A DNA stretch of 64,000 nucleotides from Alphaproteobacteria bacterium (GTDB lineage: Bacteria; Pseudomonadota; Alphaproteobacteria; Micropepsales; Micropepsaceae). Positions 7,961 through 57,026 of the stretch are shown piece after piece. The stretch spans positions 124,001 to 188,000 of the forward strand of contig JANXXU010000030.1 in NCBI GenBank assembly GCA_025350465.1. The letters run 5' to 3'. Under the pieces are notes generated by a model. It was not told the DNA's origin, made no database searches, and was given only the letters and a program-made list of their open reading frames with translations. Every line of letters starts with the position of its first letter. Within the stretch, counting starts at the first letter, position 1. The position numbers and the translations under genes were made by a program.

Positions 7961-9169
7961 ATGGATCTCGGCTTCACGCAAGGCGATCTGAAATTCCGCG
8001 ACGAGGTTCGCGCCTTCATTGCCGAACGCTATGACGACGACCTCAAGCGCAAGATGTCGCTCACCAAGAACGGCTATCTCGACAAGGACGGCCAGTTGAA
8101 ATGGCAGAAGGCCCTTCACGAACGCGGCTGGGCGGCGCCAAATTGGCCGACGGCGATGGGCGGCGCCGGATTCACCGCGACGCAAAAATACATCTTCGAC
8201 ATCGAGATGGCCGCGGCCGGCACGCCGATCGTGAGCCCGATGGGCTTGAAGATGGTCGCCCCCGTCATCATGGCGTTCGGCAACGACGCCCAGAAGAAAC
8301 GCCACCTGCCGCCGATCCTGTCATCGGATATTTGGTGGTGTCAGGGATATTCGGAACCAGGCTCGGGCTCCGATCTCGCAAGCTTGCAGATGCGCGCCGA
8401 AGACAAGGGCGATCATTATCTTTGCAACGGCACCAAGATTTGGACGACACATGCGCAATGGGCGGATTGGATCTTTTGTCTGGTACGCACGACGCCGGGC
8501 AAGAAGCCGCAGGAAGGCATCTCGTTCATCCTGATCGATATGAAAACGCCGGGCATCACGGTGAAGTCGATCGTTACGCTCGACGGGCCGGCGGACGATC
8601 AACAAGAGATCAACCAGGTCTTCTTCGACGACGTGCGCGTGCCCAAGGAGAACCTCGTCGGCAAGCCTGATGAAGGGTGGACGTATGCGAAGTACCTCCT
8701 GGAGTTCGAGCGCGGCAATGCGGGCGCACCCAGCTTGAAGCGGGCGTTGAAGAAGGTGCGCAGCGTCGCGACGGCCGAACAATCGAATGGCCGGCGGCTG
8801 ATCGAGGACGACGATTTCCGGCGCAAGATCGAGGACGTCGACATCCAAATTCACGCGCTCGAATTTACCGAGCTTCGCATCTTCTCGAAGATGGCGGCTG
8901 GGCAACGGCCGGGTGCAGAATCTTCGATGTTGAAAACGCGTGCCACCGAGCTACAGCAAGCGGTCACGGAACTCGCGCTGGAGGCGGTGAACTATTCCGC
9001 CATGCCGTTCGTGCAAGACCCATGGGCGCGCGTGAATGAACCTTGGCCGCAACCCGACTATGCGGTGACGACGGCGCCTTTTTACTTCAGCATGCGCAAG
9101 GCTTCGATCTATGCCGGCTCGAACGAGATCCAGCGCAATATCATGGCGAAGCTGGTGCTGGGACTTTGA
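7961..9169 (+). CDS. Acyl-CoA dehydrogenase (large-subunit type)
   Basis: A 402-residue acyl-CoA dehydrogenase of the same lineage as the one at 1325. It shows PNWPTAMGGAGFTATQKYIF, the beta-domain motif SEPGSGSDLASLQMRAEDKG, NGTKIWTTHAQ and the C-terminus IYAGSNEIQRNIMAKLVLGL. It is expected to use FAD to oxidise an acyl-CoA and pass electrons to ETF. Unlike the first copy it has no small-subunit partner beside it; an SDR follows after 3 bases. It may pair in trans with the small subunit at 2565 or act alone. The two large subunits probably descend from a duplication. Confidence 0.9.
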   Translation: MDLGFTQGDLKFRDEVRAFIAERYDDDLKRKMSLTKNGYLDKDGQLKWQKALHERGWAAPNWPTAMGGAGFTATQKYIFDIEMAAAGTPIVSPMGLKMVAPVIMAFGNDAQKKRHLPPILSSDIWWCQGYSEPGSGSDLASLQMRAEDKGDHYLCNGTKIWTTHAQWADWIFCLVRTTPGKKPQEGISFILIDMKTPGITVKSIVTLDGPADDQQEINQVFFDDVRVPKENLVGKPDEGWTYAKYLLEFERGNAGAPSLKRALKKVRSVATAEQSNGRRLIEDDDFRRKIEDVDIQIHALEFTELRIFSKMAAGQRPGAESSMLKTRATELQQAVTELALEAVNYSAMPFVQDPWARVNEPWPQPDYAVTTAPFYFSMRKASIYAGSNEIQRNIMAKLVLGL

Positions 9170-16974: not shown

Positions 16975-17152
16975 CCCCTCGCCCTTCCATCTTTGGAAGG
17001 GAGAGGGGATGGGGGTGAGGGAAGACCGTGACGCTGTATGCGGACGATGTGATTTGCGCGAGCGTTTTCGCAAGGCTTCGATGTGCGCGGTGGCGCGACG
17101 CCCATCCCTCACCCCGGCCCTCTCCCTTCCCGAAAGTGGGAAGGGCGAGGGA
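16975..17152 (+). repeat. Composite palindromic repeat, family 1, copy A
   Basis: Two palindromes point at each other. The first (16975-17008) pairs CCCCTCGCCCTTCCA with TGGAAGGGAGAGGGG and is followed by GGGGGTGAGGG. The second begins CCCTCACCCC at 17106 and forms a stem from 17118 to 17151. The spacer includes TTGCGCGAGCG and a nearby TTCGCAAGGC. The same layout occurs at 34052-34233 and 56894-57026. It fills most of the 276 bases between the LLM oxidoreductase start and the CoA-transferase stop; nothing else is recognisable there except the flanks. Confidence 0.85.
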
Positions 17153-17207
17153 GGAAATGGAGTCGAGACGGAGGTCCGTCGCAAGGCAAAGCTGACGAGG
17201 CGTGTTC

Positions 17208-32365: not shown

Positions 32366-33121
32366 ATGCGCGCGTTGGCGATTCTCGTAGCATTCGTTGC
32401 AGCGTTGGCGGCCGCGGCCTTCGTCGGCAAGACGCAGCTTGAGGCCATGGCGAACGCCCACCCCGATGTTGCGGTGCGCGCCGGGAACGAAACCTATTTC
32501 ATTCCGGCGAAGCTCGTTCGCACCGACGGCTGGCGGACCGACTTGCTGCGCGTTGCAGGCTGCTGGGACGCGCGCGATGCGGCAATGGTCGCGGGCATCT
32601 CGTCGTTTGCGGGTTGCGACACGTCGCATCGCGTGCCGCTGGCGCTGCCGACGTCGATGTTCGGGCTCGATGTTGCGATGGGCATTCACAAGCCCGCCAT
32701 CGCCGCCACGTTCTGGCCGAATTATCAACCGCCCGCCGATCAGATGGCGCAGCTCGGCGAAGCATGGGCCGGACGCGGGGCGTGGGCCGGGCGGCGCTCG
32801 ATCCTGCGCGCGGACTGGCAGATGTGGCGCATCGAAACGCCAGCGAGCCCGTGGGTCTATCTGTTGTCGAACGTACCGCAGAAGGGTGACGCCGATGAGT
32901 TGCGCCAATTCTATGCCGGGCGTTGCTATCGGCCGGAGAAGGCGAGCGACGCGGGCATGACGTGCAGCTTCGCGCTTCATGTCGGCACGAGCGCGGTGCT
33001 CGAGTTCAACTTGGCGGCGGATGAAATGATGAGCTTCGTCTCGTTGCGCGAGGCGCTGATAGCGCGCGCGGGCGAATGGCGTAAAGCCCCGGTCAATGGA
33101 AGTTCCTCCCCTTCGGCATGA
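32366..33121 (+). CDS. Secreted or membrane-anchored protein of unknown function
   Basis: A 251-residue protein starting MRALAILVAFVAALAAAAFV, a signal peptide or N-terminal anchor. The body has four cysteines (AGCWDARDAA, FAGCDTS, GRCYRPE and MTCSFALH) that could form disulfides in the periplasm. I recognise no domain. GGGGGAGA lies directly before the ATG and supports this start over the one six codons upstream. The last 29 bases overlap the convergent dnaE2 gene. It follows DAHP synthase by 68 bases, with no clear functional link. Confidence 0.72.
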   Translation: MRALAILVAFVAALAAAAFVGKTQLEAMANAHPDVAVRAGNETYFIPAKLVRTDGWRTDLLRVAGCWDARDAAMVAGISSFAGCDTSHRVPLALPTSMFGLDVAMGIHKPAIAATFWPNYQPPADQMAQLGEAWAGRGAWAGRRSILRADWQMWRIETPASPWVYLLSNVPQKGDADELRQFYAGRCYRPEKASDAGMTCSFALHVGTSAVLEFNLAADEMMSFVSLREALIARAGEWRKAPVNGSSSPSA

Positions 33122-36100
33122 CGGTTTGCGCGCGCGGATGTTTGTAGAGCGCATTCTCGTCTACGGGCGGGGTGCGCGGTAGGCGCTTGCGTTTGGAATT
33201 GCGCTGGGCGCTGGGCGATCTGCCGTCCACGGGCACGGGATGCTTTACTTCGTCGGCGCGGGAGAGTGTGTCGATGGAGATGGCATCGGTTGAGAGGGTG
33301 CCCAGAAGCGGCGTCAGATCCTCGATCTGGTCAGCGACGATGTGAATGACCCCGCTTTCGCTTTGCAGCCGGCCCCGTACGCAGACGAAGCGACTGCCGA
33401 GGACGATGGGGCGGAAGCGCTCGAACATCTTCGGCCAGACGATGATGTTGGCAATGGAGGTTTCGTCTTCGAGCGTCATGAAGATCACGCCGCTCGCCGT
33501 GCCGGGGCGCTGACGAACCAAGACCAGGCCAGAGACCCTGACGCGCTGACCATTCGCGACCTTGACGAGATCGCCGTTGCGCAAGATGCGCCGCGCCTCC
33601 AGCTCGGCGCGCACGAAGGAAATGGGATGGGCCTTGAGCGAGAGACGGAGATGACGGTAGTCCTCGACCACATGCTCGCCGAGGAGCATCGGTGGCAGGG
33701 CGAAATCGGGTTCGCGCTCGCGTGCCGCTTCAAAGGCGAGCAAGGGGAGGTCGTCCTTGTCCCCCGAGCGGCGCAAACCGCGCACCACCCATAAGGCTTG
33801 GCGCCGATCGAGGCCGAGGGAGCGAAAGGCGTCGGCGTCGGCGAGGCGCTCGAGGGTGGACGGTTCAAGTCCGGTGCGCAGCCAGAGATCGCGGATCGAG
33901 TCGTAACCTTTGCCGCGGGCGCCCATGATTTTCTTGCCGTCGTCTTCCTTGAGCCCCGAAATCTCGCGAAAACCCAAGCGCATCGCGCAGGTCGTACGGA
34001 TTTCGTTTTGCATGGACGCGTGGCGCGGATGGAGGCGGCTCATATTCGACTCCCCTCTCTCTTCCGGAATCGGAAGGGAGAGGGGCTGGGGGTGAGGGAT
34101 GGCCGTCATACCGGAGTGATGACGCAATGAATCTTGCGCAAGCGCTTCGGCAAACTGATCCATCTGCAGATTGCATAACGACCTTCCCTCACCCCCATCC
34201 CCTCTCCTTTCCAGAAGGTGGAAGGGAGAGGGGGGCTCGAGCGTGTTGTCCCAATCGGAGTGGTTGATATCGACGGTGCGCATTTCGACGCCGTGTTCTT
34301 GGGCGTCGCGGACGATTTGGGCGGGGGCGTAGAAGCCCATGGGCTGCGAATTCAAAAGCGACGCCGCAAAGACGTCGGGGTAGTGGCATTTGATCCACGA
34401 AGAACAATAAACCAGCAGCGCGAAACTGGCGGCGTGGCTCTCGGGGAAACCGTAATCGCCGAAGCCTTTGATCTGATTGAAACAGGCGATGGCGAAATCG
34501 CGCTCGTAGCCGCGCGCCGTCATGCCGTTGATGAACTTGGCCTCGAAATGATGGATCGTGCCGTTACGGCGGAACGTGGCCATGGCACGGCGCAGCTTGT
34601 CGGCCTCCGCCGGCGTGAAGCCTGCGGCGACAATGGCGATGCGCATCGCCTGCTCCTGAAACAGCGGCACGCCAAGTGTTTTGTGCAGGACCTCTTCAAG
34701 TTCCTTTTTGGGATAAGAGACTTTTTCCAAACCTTGGCGACGCTTCAGATAGGGATGCACCATGCCGCCTTGGATCGGGCCGGGGCGCACGATCGCGACT
34801 TCGATGACGAGGTCGTAAAATACCCGCGGCTTCAATCGCGGCAGCATCGACATCTGGGCGCGGCTTTCGACCTGGAAGACGCCGATCGAGTCGGCGCGGC
34901 ACAGCATGTCGTAGACGGCGGGCTCGGCTTTCGGGATCGCTTCGAGGGCGAGAGGAAAGCCGCCGTAATGCGTGTCCAAGAATTGGAGCGCCTTGCGCAG
35001 ACACGACAACATGCCGAGCGCCAGGACATCGACCTTCAAGATGCCCAACGCGTCGAGATCATCCTTGTCCCATTCGACGAAGGTGCGGTCGTCCATCGCG
35101 GCGTTGCCGATGGGCACGACTTCGTCGAGCCGGTCGCGGGTCATGACGAAGCCGCCGACATGCTGGGAGAGATGGCGCGGGAATTCGATGAGCTCATTGG
35201 TTAGTTTGAGCGCTTGGCGCAGGCGCGGATCGGCGGGGTCGAGACCGGCGCGGCGCACCTCAGCATCGGCTGGACCTTCGGACGACCAACCCCAGAGGGT
35301 CGAAGCGAGTGCGCCGATTGCGTCTTGCGACAGACTAAAGGCCTTGCCGACATCGCGAATGGCGCTGCGGCCACGATAGCAGATGACTGTCGCGGCGATG
35401 CCGGCGCGCTCGCGGCCATAGCGCTCGTAAATATATTGCATCACCTCTTCGCGCCGCTCGTGCTCGAAATCGACGTCGATGTCGGGGGGCTCGCGCCTCT
35501 CGGCGGAAACGAAGCGCTCGAAGAGGAGATCGACTTCGACGGGATTCACTTCGGTCACGCCGAGGCAGTAGCAAATCACCGAATTCGCCGCCGAGCCGCG
35601 ACCCTGACAGAGGATGTTCTTTTTGCGCGCGTAGCGCACGATGTCGTGGACGGTGAGAAAATAAGGTGCGTAGTTCAATTCACCGATCAGCTTCAATTCG
35701 TGATCCAAGGCGTCGCGAGCTTTCTTCGGCACGCCGTCGGGATAACGTTTGAGCGCGCCTTGCTCGGTCAAGGCGATCAGCGCCTCTTGCGGCGTCGCGT
35801 AGCCTTCGCGCGTTTCCTCCGGATATTGGTAACGCAGTTCGTCGAGCGTGAAATTGCAGCGCGCCAGGAACCGTATCGTTTCGTCTATGGCGTCGGGCGC
35901 CCTGGCGAAGAGGCGCGCCATTTCATCGGGTGTTTTCAGATGGCGCTCGGCGTTCGCCTCCAAGCGAAAGCCGGCGGTGTCGATGGTGACGCCTTCGCGG
36001 ACGCAGGTGAGCACGTCCTGAAGCGGGCGGCGTTCGGGCGCGTGATAGAGGACGTCGCCGAGCGCGATCAGCGGCACGCGATAGCGCCGGCTCATATCGA

Positions 36101-36605
36101 TGAGGCGCGACAAATGCCTGCGATCGTCGCCGCGATAATGCATGGTCGCGCCGAGCCAGAGGCGGCCGGGGGCGATCGTTTGCAATTTTTGCAGCGCGGC
36201 TTCGGCGCGGTCGACGCGCGGGCGTGGCGGCATGACGATGAAGAGCAGGCCGTCATTCAACTGGGCGAGGTCTTCGAAATTCAGGATGCAATCCCCCTTC
36301 TTGGCGCGGCGATTGCCGAGGGTGAGCAGGCGCGAAAGGCGGCCATAGGCGGCGCGGTCGGATGGGTAGGCTAGAATATCGGGCGTGCCGTCACTGAAGA
36401 CGAGACGGGCGCCGACGACCAAGCGGAAATTCAAATCGCGCGCTTGGGTGAAGGCGCGCACGACGCCGGACAACGTGTTGCGATCGGCGACGCCGATGGC
36501 GGCGAGATCGAGAGCGGCTGCGCGTGCGACAAATTCTTGGGGATGCGAACCGCCGCGCAGAAACGAAAAATTCGTGGTGACGGCGAGTTCAGCGTAGGAG
36601 GGCAT
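33093..36605 (-). CDS. dnaE2: Error-prone DNA polymerase III alpha-type (DnaE2) with in-frame repeat insertion
   Basis: A 1170-residue C-family polymerase used in damage-induced mutagenesis with ImuA and ImuB. The N-terminal PHP domain starts [20 protein letters not shown]; the polymerase core contains [20 protein letters not shown] and [20 protein letters not shown] with the catalytic Asp pair, then [20 protein letters not shown]. A C-terminal OB fold has [20 protein letters not shown]. Between [10 protein letters not shown] (E790) and CAMRLGFRE (from residue 873) there are about 82 residues where relatives carry only a short linker. Most of this (34052-34233) is a dispersed palindromic repeat read in frame, so the protein is longer than the usual 1000-1100. 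The 3' end overlaps the gene at 32366 by 29 bases. imuB lies 157 bases upstream, separated by another repeat. Confidence 0.95.
   Translation of the reverse strand: [1170 protein letters not shown]
34052..34233 (-). repeat. Composite palindromic repeat, family 1, copy B, embedded in dnaE2
   Basis: In plus-strand terms the first palindrome (34052-34085) pairs CCCCTCTCTCTTCCG with CGGAAGGGAGAGGGG and is followed by GGGGGTGAGGG. The second (about 34199-34233) is preceded by CCCTCACCCCC. The spacer has TTGCGCAAGCGCTTCGGCAA, matching TTGCGCGAGCG and its flank in copy A. It is translated as residues of about 791-852 of DnaE2 with no stop codon. Confidence 0.85.
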
Positions 36606-36619
36606 GACTACGCCCCTTC

Positions 36620-36753
36620 TTTCCTCCCCCGCGGGGCGGGGGAGGTGTCGCGCGTCGCGCGACGGAGGGGGGATCTAAATGCGGCGCTCCTCCACTTCCC
36701 CTCTCCGACCTCACTTCGTTCGGCCACCTCCCCCGTGAGTACGGGGGAGGAAA
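36620..36753. repeat. Terminal-inverted-repeat element, family 2, copy 1 (imuB-dnaE2 junction)
   Basis: A 134-base element bounded by TTTCCTCCCCC (36620-36630) and its exact inverse GGGGGAGGAAA (36743-36753). Inside are GCGGGGCGGGGGAGGTGTCG, GACGGAGGGGGGAT and CCACCTCCCCCGTGAG. A nearly identical element of 135 bases lies at 40349-40483. It fills the space between imuB and dnaE2, which in many genomes are almost adjacent. Confidence 0.8.
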
Positions 36754-36762
36754 GATGGGCGC

Positions 36763-38325
36763 TCACGCGAAGAGCCCGTGCAGATACCAGCGGGCGCGTT
36801 CGACTTCGCGGCCGTAGAGGCCTTCGCGATAGAGCCAGAAGCGGCGCCCGGTCTGATCCTCGACGCGGAAATAGTCGCGGGTGAGGGCGCGGCCCTCAGC
36901 ATCGCGCCACCATTCCATGGCGATGCGCTCGGGGCCGTCGGCACGGGCGACCTGATGCTGCATGCGCCGCCAGGAGAAGCGCGCAGGCGGGCCGTCGGGC
37001 ACTTCGGCGACTGCTTCGATCGCCTCGGGACGCTCGAAGAGACGCAACGGCCGCGTCGGGCCGATGCTGTCTTGCTGCGGCGGCTCGACCGCCGGCCACT
37101 TCATGTCTTGCGCTTCGCGGGCGGGCACGGCGGCGACGGCATATTCGGGGATGTGCGTTTCCTGCGGCACATAACGGATGATGCGGCGCAAGCCGAAGCG
37201 CGCGCCCAAACGGTCGATCAGATCGGCGACGTCGTCGCTGCTTTCGCCGGGGGCGATGAAATGCTGCTGGTCGGCGGCGAGCGAGTCGGCATTGGTCACG
37301 GCCAGGCGCACGACATCGAAGCCGAAGCCCGGATCGAGCTCGTCGGTGAGGACCGAGAATTTTTCCTTGAACAAGCGACAGAGGACGCGGGCATCGCGCA
37401 TCGGGCGGCTTGTCGCCACCGACAAACGCTTGACTGCGCCGTCGACGCGGAAGAGCGTCACTTGAAGCGCGCGCGCGCCGTCGCCGCGCTCTTCCATGCG
37501 ATGCGCCAATTCGGCGGCCAATTGCTCGATCGTCAGCAGGATGTCGCTTTCGAGCACGATCGGCTCAGGAAAAATTCGCTCGGCCATATAAGGCGGCACG
37601 GGCAAACGCGGCGTGATCGGTTCGTTGAGACGGCCGAAGGCTTGATCGAGGCGCTGCAACAGGATGGCGCCGAAGCGGGCGGCGAGGGGCGAGCGCGGGC
37701 GATCGACGATGTCGGCGATGCGTTTCAGGCCGACGCGGGCGAGCGCATCGACGGTATCGCCGTCCAGACGCAGTGCGGCGAGCGGCAGGGGCAACAGCGT
37801 CGCGCGCGTCGCCGCATCTTCGACGACGCCGGGCTTGCCGTAATGCGTGACCGCCCAGGCGGCCCCCGGCGTCGAGGCGATGGTGGCGCGTGCGATAAAA
37901 CCTTGGGCGCGCAGACGGCGCACGATGTCGCGCACCATCGCATCCTCGCCGCCGAACAAATGAGCGCAGCCCGTGACGTCGAGCATCATGCCGTCTCGCG
38001 CGTCGAGCCCGACGAGCGGCGTGTAGCGATTGGTCCAATCGACGATGGCTTCGAGCAGGCGCAGATCGGCGTGGTCGTCGGTGTGTTCGACCTTGATGTC
38101 GGGATACATGGCGCGGGCATCGGCGAGGGCGAGCCCTGTGTTCAGGCCGCGTTTGCTTGCCGCCTCGTTCACTGCTGCGATGCGAAGCGCGCTTTTGATT
38201 TCGCGCACGACGATGCGGGGGCTTTGCTCAGCCGGCGCGGGTGAGAGCTGCCGCTCGATCCGGTCGGTCGACAATCGTTCGAGCCACACCGAGAGAAAGC
38301 GTGGGCACGGCGAAACATTGCTCAT
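36763..38325 (-). CDS. imuB: ImuB, Y-family polymerase-like mutasome protein
   Basis: A 520-residue protein. It begins RFLSVWLERLSTDRIERQ, the typical ImuB start, and contains NEAASKRGLNTGLALADARA and DATGCAHLFGG-like sequence (here DVTGCAHLFGGEDAMV). The ImuB C-terminal domain ends with FRVEDQTGRRFWLYREGLYG. ImuB resembles Y-family polymerases but lacks catalytic activity; it bridges DnaE2 and the beta clamp during SOS mutagenesis. Its start lies 98 bases inside the 3' end of imuA, so the two are translationally coupled. dnaE2 follows after a repeat element. Confidence 0.92.
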   Translation of the reverse strand: MSNVSPCPRFLSVWLERLSTDRIERQLSPAPAEQSPRIVVREIKSALRIAAVNEAASKRGLNTGLALADARAMYPDIKVEHTDDHADLRLLEAIVDWTNRYTPLVGLDARDGMMLDVTGCAHLFGGEDAMVRDIVRRLRAQGFIARATIASTPGAAWAVTHYGKPGVVEDAATRATLLPLPLAALRLDGDTVDALARVGLKRIADIVDRPRSPLAARFGAILLQRLDQAFGRLNEPITPRLPVPPYMAERIFPEPIVLESDILLTIEQLAAELAHRMEERGDGARALQVTLFRVDGAVKRLSVATSRPMRDARVLCRLFKEKFSVLTDELDPGFGFDVVRLAVTNADSLAADQQHFIAPGESSDDVADLIDRLGARFGLRRIIRYVPQETHIPEYAVAAVPAREAQDMKWPAVEPPQQDSIGPTRPLRLFERPEAIEAVAEVPDGPPARFSWRRMQHQVARADGPERIAMEWWRDAEGRALTRDYFRVEDQTGRRFWLYREGLYGREVERARWYLHGLFA

Positions 38326-39037
38326 GGTGGTTCCACCCCAAAGTCCATCGGCCGCAAGGGCCGAAACGGTTCTTCACAAGCTCAAGATCGAAAGCGGCCG
38401 CCCCGATGCCGCCGAAGGCGTCCGCATGGCTCGGTGCGGCGGCGACTTGCCAGCGCGTGGTCGCGGCGTTTGCATCGACGCTGCTCGCGTGGCGCAAGAG
38501 CAAGCCCAAGCCGTCGCCTTGCTGTGCGGCGAGAACGAGACGGCGCGTCGCGGTCAGATCGAGCGCGCTCGCGTTTACCGGAAACTCGCCGACCACGGCG
38601 GCGAAGGCGCGGCACTTGAGCGCCTCGGCGAGCGCCCAAAGCGCGTCGTCGATATGGCCGACGCGCAGATGAATGAGATGCGCGGGCGAGACGCCCAATT
38701 GGGCGAGGCCCGGCGCGTAGGGTGGGCCGCCTTCCCAGGCGGTGAAATCGTGCTGGACATAGAGGACGTAGCGGCGCGGGTTGCCGGCGCGCGCGGCCAA
38801 GCTCAGGACAAAGCCCGTGGCGGCGCAGAGGTCGCCCGCGGCGGCCGGCACGATCTCGTGCACCGTCTCGCAGTTGAGGCCGCCGCCCAGCGCGGCATCG
38901 ATTGCAGCGACCCCGAGGGCGACGGCCGGGCGGGGGGCCTTCCTGGGATCACGGGCGCAGCCAGCCTCAATGGCGGCAATCGTCCGCCGTAGAGACCCCA
39001 AATCCTCCGCCGCCAAATGGGTTGGCACGGGTCGCAC
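38228..39037 (-). CDS. imuA: ImuA, SOS mutagenesis (RecA-like) protein
   Basis: A 269-residue protein. RPAVALGVAAIDAALGGGLN, TVHEIVPAAAGDLCAATGFV and VLYVQHDFTAWEGGPPYAPG are characteristic of ImuA, a RecA/SulA-like fold that supports DnaE2-dependent mutagenesis. I see no intact Walker A motif. The GTG at 39037 is my start; a second GTG at 39028 is possible. A LexA box lies 15 bases upstream of the start, so the cassette imuA-imuB-dnaE2 should be induced by DNA damage. The 3' end overlaps imuB by 98 bases. Confidence 0.88.
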   Translation of the reverse strand: MRPVPTHLAAEDLGSLRRTIAAIEAGCARDPRKAPRPAVALGVAAIDAALGGGLNCETVHEIVPAAAGDLCAATGFVLSLAARAGNPRRYVLYVQHDFTAWEGGPPYAPGLAQLGVSPAHLIHLRVGHIDDALWALAEALKCRAFAAVVGEFPVNASALDLTATRRLVLAAQQGDGLGLLLRHASSVDANAATTRWQVAAAPSHADAFGGIGAAAFDLELVKNRFGPCGRWTLGWNHHEQCFAVPTLSLGVARTIVDRPDRAAALTRAG

Positions 39038-39051
39038 CTGTTGGTTGGCTT

Positions 39052-39066
39052 GTTCACTTTATGTTC
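39052..39066 (-). promoter_or_regulatory. LexA (SOS) box upstream of imuA
   Basis: The plus strand reads GTTC-ACTTTAT-GTTC, an exact match to the alphaproteobacterial LexA operator GTTC-N7-GTTC. It is 15 bases from the imuA start codon, in the right place to block a promoter for imuA-imuB-dnaE2. Confidence 0.88.
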
Positions 39067-39320: not shown

Positions 39321-40334
39321 TCAAGCGCTCGCGACGCGGACCAAACGGCGGCCGAAGGCTTCGCCGGTGAAGAGGCCGCGGAAGGCGTTCGGCGCATTCT
39401 CCAGGCCGTCGACGATTTCTTCGCGAAAACTCAGCTTGCCGTGGCGGATCCAGTGCGCGAGTTGGGCGCGCGCCTCGTTGAACTTGGCGCTGTAGTCGTA
39501 GACGACGAGGCCTTCCATCTTGAGGCGCTGAGTGATGAAGGGCAGGGTCTGGCGGATGCCGCGCGGGTTCGTGGTGTTGTACTCGGCGATCTGGCCGGAG
39601 ACGACGATGCGTCCGTTCTTGCGCATGTTGAGGATGGCGGCGTCGAGCGTCTCGCCGCCGACATTGTCGAAATAGATGTCGATGCCTTTGGGCGCGGCCT
39701 GTTTGAGCGCCGCTATCAAGTCGCCCGCGGTCTTGTAATTGATGGCGTGGTCGAAGCCGATCTCGCGCAGATAGGCGCATTTCGCATCCGATCCGGCGAT
39801 GCCGATCGCGGTGCAGTGTTCGATCTTTGCCATCTGGCCCGCCGTTGCGCCGACAGTGCCGGCGGCCGAGGAGACGAGAACCGTTTCGCCTTCCTTCGGC
39901 TTTCCCAAATCGCTCAAGCCGAAATAAGCGGTGAGGCCGGGGATGCCGAGCACGCCGATGGCGCACGTCTCATGCACCGGTCCGCAATAAATCGCGGGAT
40001 CGAGCACCTGCATGCCGCGCCCTTCTGAAACGAAATGACTCTGCCAGCCGAAGCCGCCCCAAACTTTCGCGCCCTCCTCGAATTTCGGATTGCGCGAGGC
40101 GAGGACGGTGCCGATGCCGGCGCTCTCGACCGTCGCGCCGAGGGAGAGAGCTGGGGCGTAAGAGTCCGCCGACAGACGCGAACGCATACCGGGATCGACC
40201 GAGATGAAATCGACGCGCACGAGCACACTGCCGTCTCTGATCTCCGGCAGGTCATATTCCTCAAGACGGAAATCATCGGCCTGCGGCAGACCTTGCGGGC
40301 GGCGTGCGAGCGTCCAACGGCGGTGGGTGGTCAT
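39321..40334 (-). CDS. NADP-dependent oxidoreductase, medium-chain (MDR) 2-alkenal reductase/PTGR-like
   Basis: A 337-residue zinc-less MDR protein. It begins MTTHRRWTLARRPQGLPQAD and contains VRVDFISVDPGMRSRL, the Rossmann motif VLVSSAAGTVGATAGQMAKI, AGSDAKCAYLREIGFDHAIN and NVGGETLDAAILNMRKNGRI. These match the leukotriene B4 12-hydroxydehydrogenase/2-alkenal reductase family, which reduces alpha,beta-unsaturated carbonyls with NADPH. The open frame to 40607 upstream runs through repeat DNA, so the ATG at 40334 is the start. A homologous gene lies immediately upstream, 155 bases away, separated by repeat family 2. Confidence 0.9.
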   Translation of the reverse strand: MTTHRRWTLARRPQGLPQADDFRLEEYDLPEIRDGSVLVRVDFISVDPGMRSRLSADSYAPALSLGATVESAGIGTVLASRNPKFEEGAKVWGGFGWQSHFVSEGRGMQVLDPAIYCGPVHETCAIGVLGIPGLTAYFGLSDLGKPKEGETVLVSSAAGTVGATAGQMAKIEHCTAIGIAGSDAKCAYLREIGFDHAINYKTAGDLIAALKQAAPKGIDIYFDNVGGETLDAAILNMRKNGRIVVSGQIAEYNTTNPRGIRQTLPFITQRLKMEGLVVYDYSAKFNEARAQLAHWIRHGKLSFREEIVDGLENAPNAFRGLFTGEAFGRRLVRVASA

Positions 40335-40348
40335 GCGTTTCTTCCTTC

Positions 40349-40483
40349 TTTCCTCACCCGCGGGGCGGGGGAGGTGTCGCTGGAGGCGACGGAGGGGGGA
40401 TTTAAAGACGAGGTTCTGACTTACCCCCTCCGTCACTTCGCCTTCGGCTCGTGCCACCTCCCCCGTGAGAACAGGGGAGGAAA
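40349..40483. repeat. Terminal-inverted-repeat element, family 2, copy 2 (between two MDR genes)
   Basis: A 135-base element bounded by TTTCCTCACCC (40349-40359) and GGGGAGGAAA (40474-40483). It shares GCGGGGCGGGGGAGGTGTCG, GACGGAGGGGGGAT and CCACCTCCCCCGTGAG with copy 1 at 36620-36753. The two copies differ mostly in the middle. It fills the junction between the tandem reductase genes. Confidence 0.8.
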
Positions 40484-56893: not shown

Positions 56894-57026
56894 CCCCTCG
56901 CTCTTCCATCTTTGGAAGGGAGAGGGGCCGGGGGTGAGGGAAGGCCGACGCGTCCGGCGCTCGATGCGGCTTGACGCCCATCCCTCACCCGATCCCTCTC
57001 CCTTCCCGAAGGGGGAAGGGCAAGGG
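56894..57026 (+). repeat. Composite palindromic repeat, family 1, copy C (shortened)
   Basis: First palindrome (56894-56927): CCCCTCGCTCTTCCA pairs with TGGAAGGGAGAGGGG and is followed by GGGGGTGAGGG. It differs from the first arm of copy A by a single base. Second palindrome (56994-57026) is preceded by CCCTCACCC. The spacer is only about 40 bases, shorter than in copies A and B. It lies between nadE and gltX, ending about 20 bases before the gltX GTG. Confidence 0.83.

Follow-up and report, generated by a model that had tools for sequence, protein, structure and literature searches.

Rickettsia palindromic elements are described in PMC10969869 as dispersed palindromes of ~150 bp that lie in frame inside unrelated genes. 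Intragenic REPs and REP dimers were reported by Di Nocera 2013 (PMC3733652), which places many of them in genes for DNA synthesis and repair, names DnaE2 among these, gives a length of 43–82 aa for the REP-encoded stretches of Thauera and R. conorii, and suggests flexible linkers or mutator effects as outcomes. One shared insertion site is reported there, in recB of two Xanthomonas, the sites otherwise differing within a functional category, and a shared DnaE2 loop is not described in the passages considered here. Besides this study, no literature on DnaE2 inserts was found among the matches listed; an insert is not mentioned in the 12 of 20 places covered in PMC3919608, and the words insertion, linker and repeat are absent from PMC12926913. 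In-frame palindromes and a place for DnaE2 among REP-tagged genes are already known; what is new here is one particular element family and a DnaE2 loop shared by different palindromes.

The locus belongs to a cassette in the window, by which we mean the whole stretch of 64,000 nucleotides that was analysed. Its genes and upstream site are:

33093..36605, minus strand: dnaE2, error-prone DNA polymerase of 1170 aa (ORF, NCBIfam NF004225 and Foldseek)
36763..38325, minus strand: imuB-like gene for an inactive Y-family polymerase, between imuA and dnaE2 in the same cassette (Pol IV models, all below cut-off)
38228..39037, minus strand: imuA-like gene (NF033429, 59 bits, below the model cut-off of 150)
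39052..39066, no strand assigned: GTTC-N7-GTTC, a LexA-box-like site just upstream of imuA

DnaE2 scored 1434 bits against the error-prone polymerase model NF004225 (cut-off 939), and its top Foldseek match among solved structures was 7pu7. Residues D375, D377 and D526, which we take to be catalytic, are invariant in 85 of 85 aligned sequences (85 of 92 references were used, and locus L128 lies outside the 92). For the neighbouring polymerase gene we infer the name imuB. GTTC-N7-GTTC, presumably the LexA-box form of alphaproteobacteria, has its sole window match here; since 2.6 matches are expected by chance, the argument rests on position and not on count. The window also holds a second palindrome-like family (CCCGCGGGGCGGGGGAGG) at 36594–36679, overlapping the dnaE2 start and the imuB spacer, and again at 40323–40406, as well as a 120-base direct repeat pair (2395–2514 and 9046–9165, 74% identical).

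An earlier note on this DNA had counted 82 DnaE2 residues between WDNTLE, ending at E790, and CAMRLGF, starting at 873, where it expected only a short linker. The count is exact and the loop is indeed enlarged, but the insert-free congeners G003 and G004 already have 22–23 residues there, which leaves a net gain of 59–60 residues, or ~182 bases. Linkers of the wider family, by a slightly different measure, mostly have 3–12 residues. The frame is open through the palindrome, as had been claimed, and there are domains on both sides. Because the 26 full copies of the element described below average 2.23 open frames out of six, the open frame in dnaE2 is unremarkable by itself, and we rejected it as a sign of adaptation. 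Behind the insert, residues 858–872 carry a motif, LHPRHxxMxxxIRT, that is common in alphaproteobacterial DnaE2 linkers and was not seen in short ones.

The gain corresponds to a repeat whose edges were set by comparison with other copies in the same genome (G000). Its parts and its further copies in the window are:

34052..34233, minus strand: 182-base composite palindromic element, in frame, about residues 791–852 of DnaE2 (aligned copies, consensus, fold)
34179..34233, no strand assigned: hairpin unit on the 5' side of the coding strand, CCCCTCTCCCTTCC..GGAAAGGAGAGGGG plus GGGGGTGAGGGA tail (copies, consensus)
34052..34105, no strand assigned: second hairpin unit, inverted relative to the first, so that the tails pair too (copies, consensus)
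~16975..17154, no strand assigned: full intergenic copy of the element family (window self-comparison, gene context)
56894..57026, no strand assigned: less complete intergenic copy of the same family (window self-comparison, gene context)

Both window copies lie between genes, in agreement with the earlier note. Genome-wide, the element occurs at 40 or more places, 26 of them full length (165–200 bases) and the remainder half units or other lengths, where two adjacent half units may be parts of a single element. The number of places is a minimum, since 40 of the 56 first-look candidates were scored. In the consensus of the 26 copies, two hairpin units, CCCCTCGCCCTTCC..GGAAGGGAGAGGGG with the GGGGGTGAGGGA tail, flank a variable centre in inverted order, and it has the terminal inverted repeats of a MITE, with ends CCCCTCGCCCTTCC..GGAAGGGCGAGGGG. 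Over conserved columns the copy in dnaE2 has an identity of 0.94 to the consensus, which ties it for third to fifth place among the 26. This fits a fairly recent insertion; alternatively, the palindrome could be so well preserved in dnaE2 because its structure is being kept.

Copies inside genes could be assessed in part. Twenty of 35 other ORFs that span a copy were scanned with Pfam, which misses genes without a Pfam domain; the 15 unscanned ORFs are mostly short. Four of the scanned ORFs (L028, L084, L090 and L023) have a domain, on one side only, and in each of them the element is upstream of the domain, where it likely sits before the true start. Among the tested copies, only that in dnaE2 has conserved domains flanking both sides.

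By description, the element resembles Rickettsia palindromic elements, as the earlier note had proposed: it is 182 bp long, dispersed over at least 40 places and palindromic in its consensus, and its dnaE2 insertion is in frame between domains of a gene that is kept and appears to be under purifying selection. It differs in its host, in the single tested copy with domains on both sides, and possibly in that its copies have no common reading frame. Its two inverted hairpin units, variable centre, terminal inverted repeats and dispersed intergenic copies recall BIMEs (REP pairs) and MITEs; no transposase or target duplication could be tied to it here. In contrast to GTAG/CGTC REPs, neither tag was seen by eye in the conserved letters of the 26-copy consensus, although single copies do have CGTC near the centre. 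A search of the genome for Y1_Tnp gave one match, with no element copy in the 2340 bases around that gene, and a RAYT link was rejected on this lone match without a flanking repeat pair; possibly a RAYT-type transposase was missed or lost. A visual comparison of the flanks with the G003 and G004 sequences revealed no clear target-site duplication, and the only Rfam match in the window at the gathering threshold is a tRNA.

Within the genus, the 182-base query at E <= 1e-9 gave 59 matches in G000 versus 0, 0, 0, 0, 2, 1, 2, 0, 4 and 0 in ten congeners, and the element family is therefore expanded in the G000 lineage. None of the six congeners with a readable dnaE2 linker has the G000-type element in it. 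By the anchor measure, the DnaE2 linkers of the seven readable genomes of the genus have 15 (G003) and 14 (G004) residues without insert, 23 (G002), 35 (G008), 74 (G000), 73 (G001) and 100 (G005). The earlier note had named, as evidence against an insertion, close relatives that all share the 80 residues with no similarity to the intergenic copies; the readable close relatives lack these residues, and the genomic copies match the insert. Thirty relative loci were examined, of which L039 ends before the linker. In G007 (G007:C40:1) a contig end cuts dnaE2 off ~38 residues short of the loop, and in G010 (G010:C97) only DnaE2 residues 899–1170 were found; repeats may break the assembly at the loop in these two genomes.

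The enlarged protein was modelled with AlphaFold (mean pLDDT 85.7). Values are below 50 for residues 802–847 and above 90 in the blocks that end at 790 and begin at 861, so that the insert, which lies between the finger and HhH domains, is predicted to be disordered. For G000 versus G001, dN/dS was 0.15 before the loop and 0.14 after it, and for G000 versus G002–G005 it was 0.21–0.25 before and 0.22–0.35 after; each ratio spans the whole split from the relative, and most of the divergence may predate the insertion. Within the loop the value against G001 was 0.63, from an alignment that is not meaningful there. The ratios indicate that purifying selection acts on both sides of the loop, and because dN/dS is low behind the insert, that part of DnaE2 seems to be translated and used. 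The suggestion of the earlier note that the insert may be tolerated as a surface loop is upheld.

The same loop holds other palindromes. Two congeners, G001 and G005, and the more distant G011 and G018 have strong palindromes there that differ from the G000 element, and each of these inserts has further copies in its own genome. For the inserts of G060 and G008 and the short one of G002, no second copy in their own genome was listed. In G005 one palindrome is nested inside another; other sites in genomes of the genus match the outer palindrome, and the insert of another species has a short match to the inner one. Besides its loop insert, the DnaE2 of G060 (L038) has a second repeat-like insertion, LPPQGGEGREGGKERGEG, further on. 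Beyond these, a named sample was taken as the best 80 of 596 relatives listed, a non-random choice, of which 70 were parsed and 10 dropped for want of a C anchor. Its carriers of a palindromic insert in this loop are:

L128: Hydrogenophaga
L126: Thiobacillus
L122: Jiella
L113: Caulobacter
L117: Novosphingobium
L123: Caulobacteraceae bin
L110: alphaproteobacterial bin
L120: Pirellulales bin

All except Jiella and Caulobacter (6 of 8) are metagenome bins, whose taxon labels are less certain. Cultured relatives that carry an insert include Caulobacter sp. 17J80-11 and Jiella sp. LLJ827; in Caulobacter crescentus, dnaE2 is not known to be essential. In six of the eight the insert is dispersed in its own genome (G061, G063, G064, G066 and G067, and weakly G068), and in G062 and G065 no second copy was found among the matches listed. 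By mutual BLAST the inserts fall into several groups whose similarity to one another is short or nil, some matches being host flank as judged by position; those of G001 and G011 form one group in opposite orientation. Inserts of different lineages have no common sequence or length. In Bradyrhizobium DnaE2 (L114, L115, L116, L118 and L125), inserts occupy a second loop, behind the HhH domain start, and are palindromic in at least L115, L116 and L118. The palindromes of the G005 insert and of two Bradyrhizobium inserts begin with CGTC.

Inserts of this kind are not general. A further 57 linker regions were fetched from the wider family (45 parsed, 8 read by eye as protein, 4 unreadable), and no palindrome was seen in the 53 readable ones. 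The parsed linkers have 3–12 residues with one exception of 26, one of the eight read by eye has ~20, and the 39 long enough to score gave no inverted repeat above 6. The inserts are therefore limited to certain lineages, which within this family are those with longer linkers.

The concentration on the loop was assessed by an inverted-repeat scan of 85 dnaE2 genes (284 kb; arms within 350 bases, score >=14), which found 22 repeats; codon-shuffled genes gave 1. All 14 with a score >=16 fall within G000 residues 796–909, where this loop accounts for ten, position 885 for three (Bradyrhizobium) and position 909 for one, and five of the eight weaker repeats (14 to <16) lie elsewhere in dnaE2. Among 99 linkers, 36 exceed the anchor spacing by at least 20 residues, and a repeat scoring >=15 is present in 13 of the 36, at this loop in 12 of them and at the second loop in one (L118); 20 same-length windows per gene never scored above 12. 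None of the 63 shorter linkers has a repeat, a result of little weight, as short linkers cannot reach the stem thresholds. The paralogue DnaE1, taken as the longest ORF at the DnaE1 match in each of 20 genomes (five of them family carriers), had no repeat >=16 and one of 15 at a contig end; this control is modest by itself because only ~3 repeats would be expected in its 68 kb at the DnaE2 rate. The DnaE1 linkers of the genus likewise have no insert in 9 of 9 readable cases, a tenth being incomplete.

We consider it probable that selfish palindromic repeats settle in a permissive loop of DnaE2 as nearly neutral passengers, and that the polymerase stays functional. A lineage-specific, non-autonomous, REP/MITE-like palindrome would have moved into the dnaE2 loop that joins the polymerase core to the helix-hairpin-helix domain, with the frame preserved. 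The ribosome would read it as ~60 extra disordered, surface-exposed residues, and the enlarged DnaE2, presumably expressed, would remain functional. Different palindromes would settle repeatedly at this permissive site in some lineages; we propose that they recur there because selection removes insertions elsewhere in the gene.

It is unlikely that the site is instead chosen by the insertion machinery, through a transposase that prefers hairpins or single-stranded SOS-transcribed DNA, so that mutasome genes or existing palindromes attract more of them. The nested palindromes of G005 and the LexA-box-like site preceding the cassette would suit such targeting, as would the in-frame palindromic inserts of three imuB-like genes (L033:1034–1185, L120:109–210 and L166:404–524), loci at which both dnaE2 and imuB have inverted repeats. 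The flanks speak against it: they hold 12 repeats in ~193 kb, a density similar to that of dnaE2 (14 in 284 kb) and imuB (3 in 103 kb, 77 loci). This comparison therefore did not show the SOS cassette to be richer in palindromes than its surroundings, which include intergenic DNA. The imuB-like gene of L166 also has a further repeat-like stretch.

That the inserts are selected for tuning the enzyme appears quite unlikely. A larger loop would alter the fidelity of DnaE2 or its contact with the clamp or ImuB, and insert-bearing lineages would be favoured. The position between polymerase core and HhH domain, the recurrence in distant lineages, the palindromes of imuB at the three loci above and the mutator idea raised in Di Nocera 2013 (PMC3733652) agree with this reading, but the inserts differ in sequence and length, many species have none, the 53 readable additional family linkers are palindrome-free, and a neutral safe site accounts for the identical pattern.

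It seems very unlikely that the insert acts at the RNA level, with little DnaE2 being made because a very stable hairpin in its mRNA hinders ribosomes or RNA polymerase. The predicted fold is strong: RNA 34040–34245 (minus strand) has an MFE of -118.3 kcal/mol versus -73.2 (sd 5.1) for shuffles (z -8.8; 0 of 200 as good), and 12 of the 13 linkers with score >=15, the exception being L128, out-fold per base the best of 20 windows from the same gene. Against this, such a fold is a consequence of palindromic sequence, and ribosomes unwind hairpins. An assembly error or pseudogene is extremely improbable: the genome is a draft of 52 contigs and palindromes are difficult for sequencing, but independent assemblies, including the named isolates L113 and L122, have the same pattern at the same loop, the frame is open, selection appears purifying behind the insert, and the three presumed catalytic residues are invariant.

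In sum, the palindromic repeat in this mutagenic polymerase is real and in frame, and the loop that holds it is a site of recurrent insertion in several lineages. A bolder reading, which we offer tentatively and regard as unlikely, is that unrelated mobile palindromes land again and again in the loop between core and HhH domain, in Proteobacteria as well as Planctomycetes, and in ImuB as a second target, because the SOS mutasome genes are hit preferentially or because the inserts are selected. If it were true, selfish DNA would repeatedly remodel a mutagenic polymerase, with consequences for evolvability. One enzyme loop with different palindromes in each lineage provides natural replicates of the passage from mobile repeat to protein, and the question raised by Rickettsia palindromic elements, neutral tolerance or new function, becomes testable in a single enzyme whose output, the mutation rate, is easily measured. 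It is also a caution that the length of the DnaE2 loop, as also in some ImuB, can reflect repeats rather than shared function.
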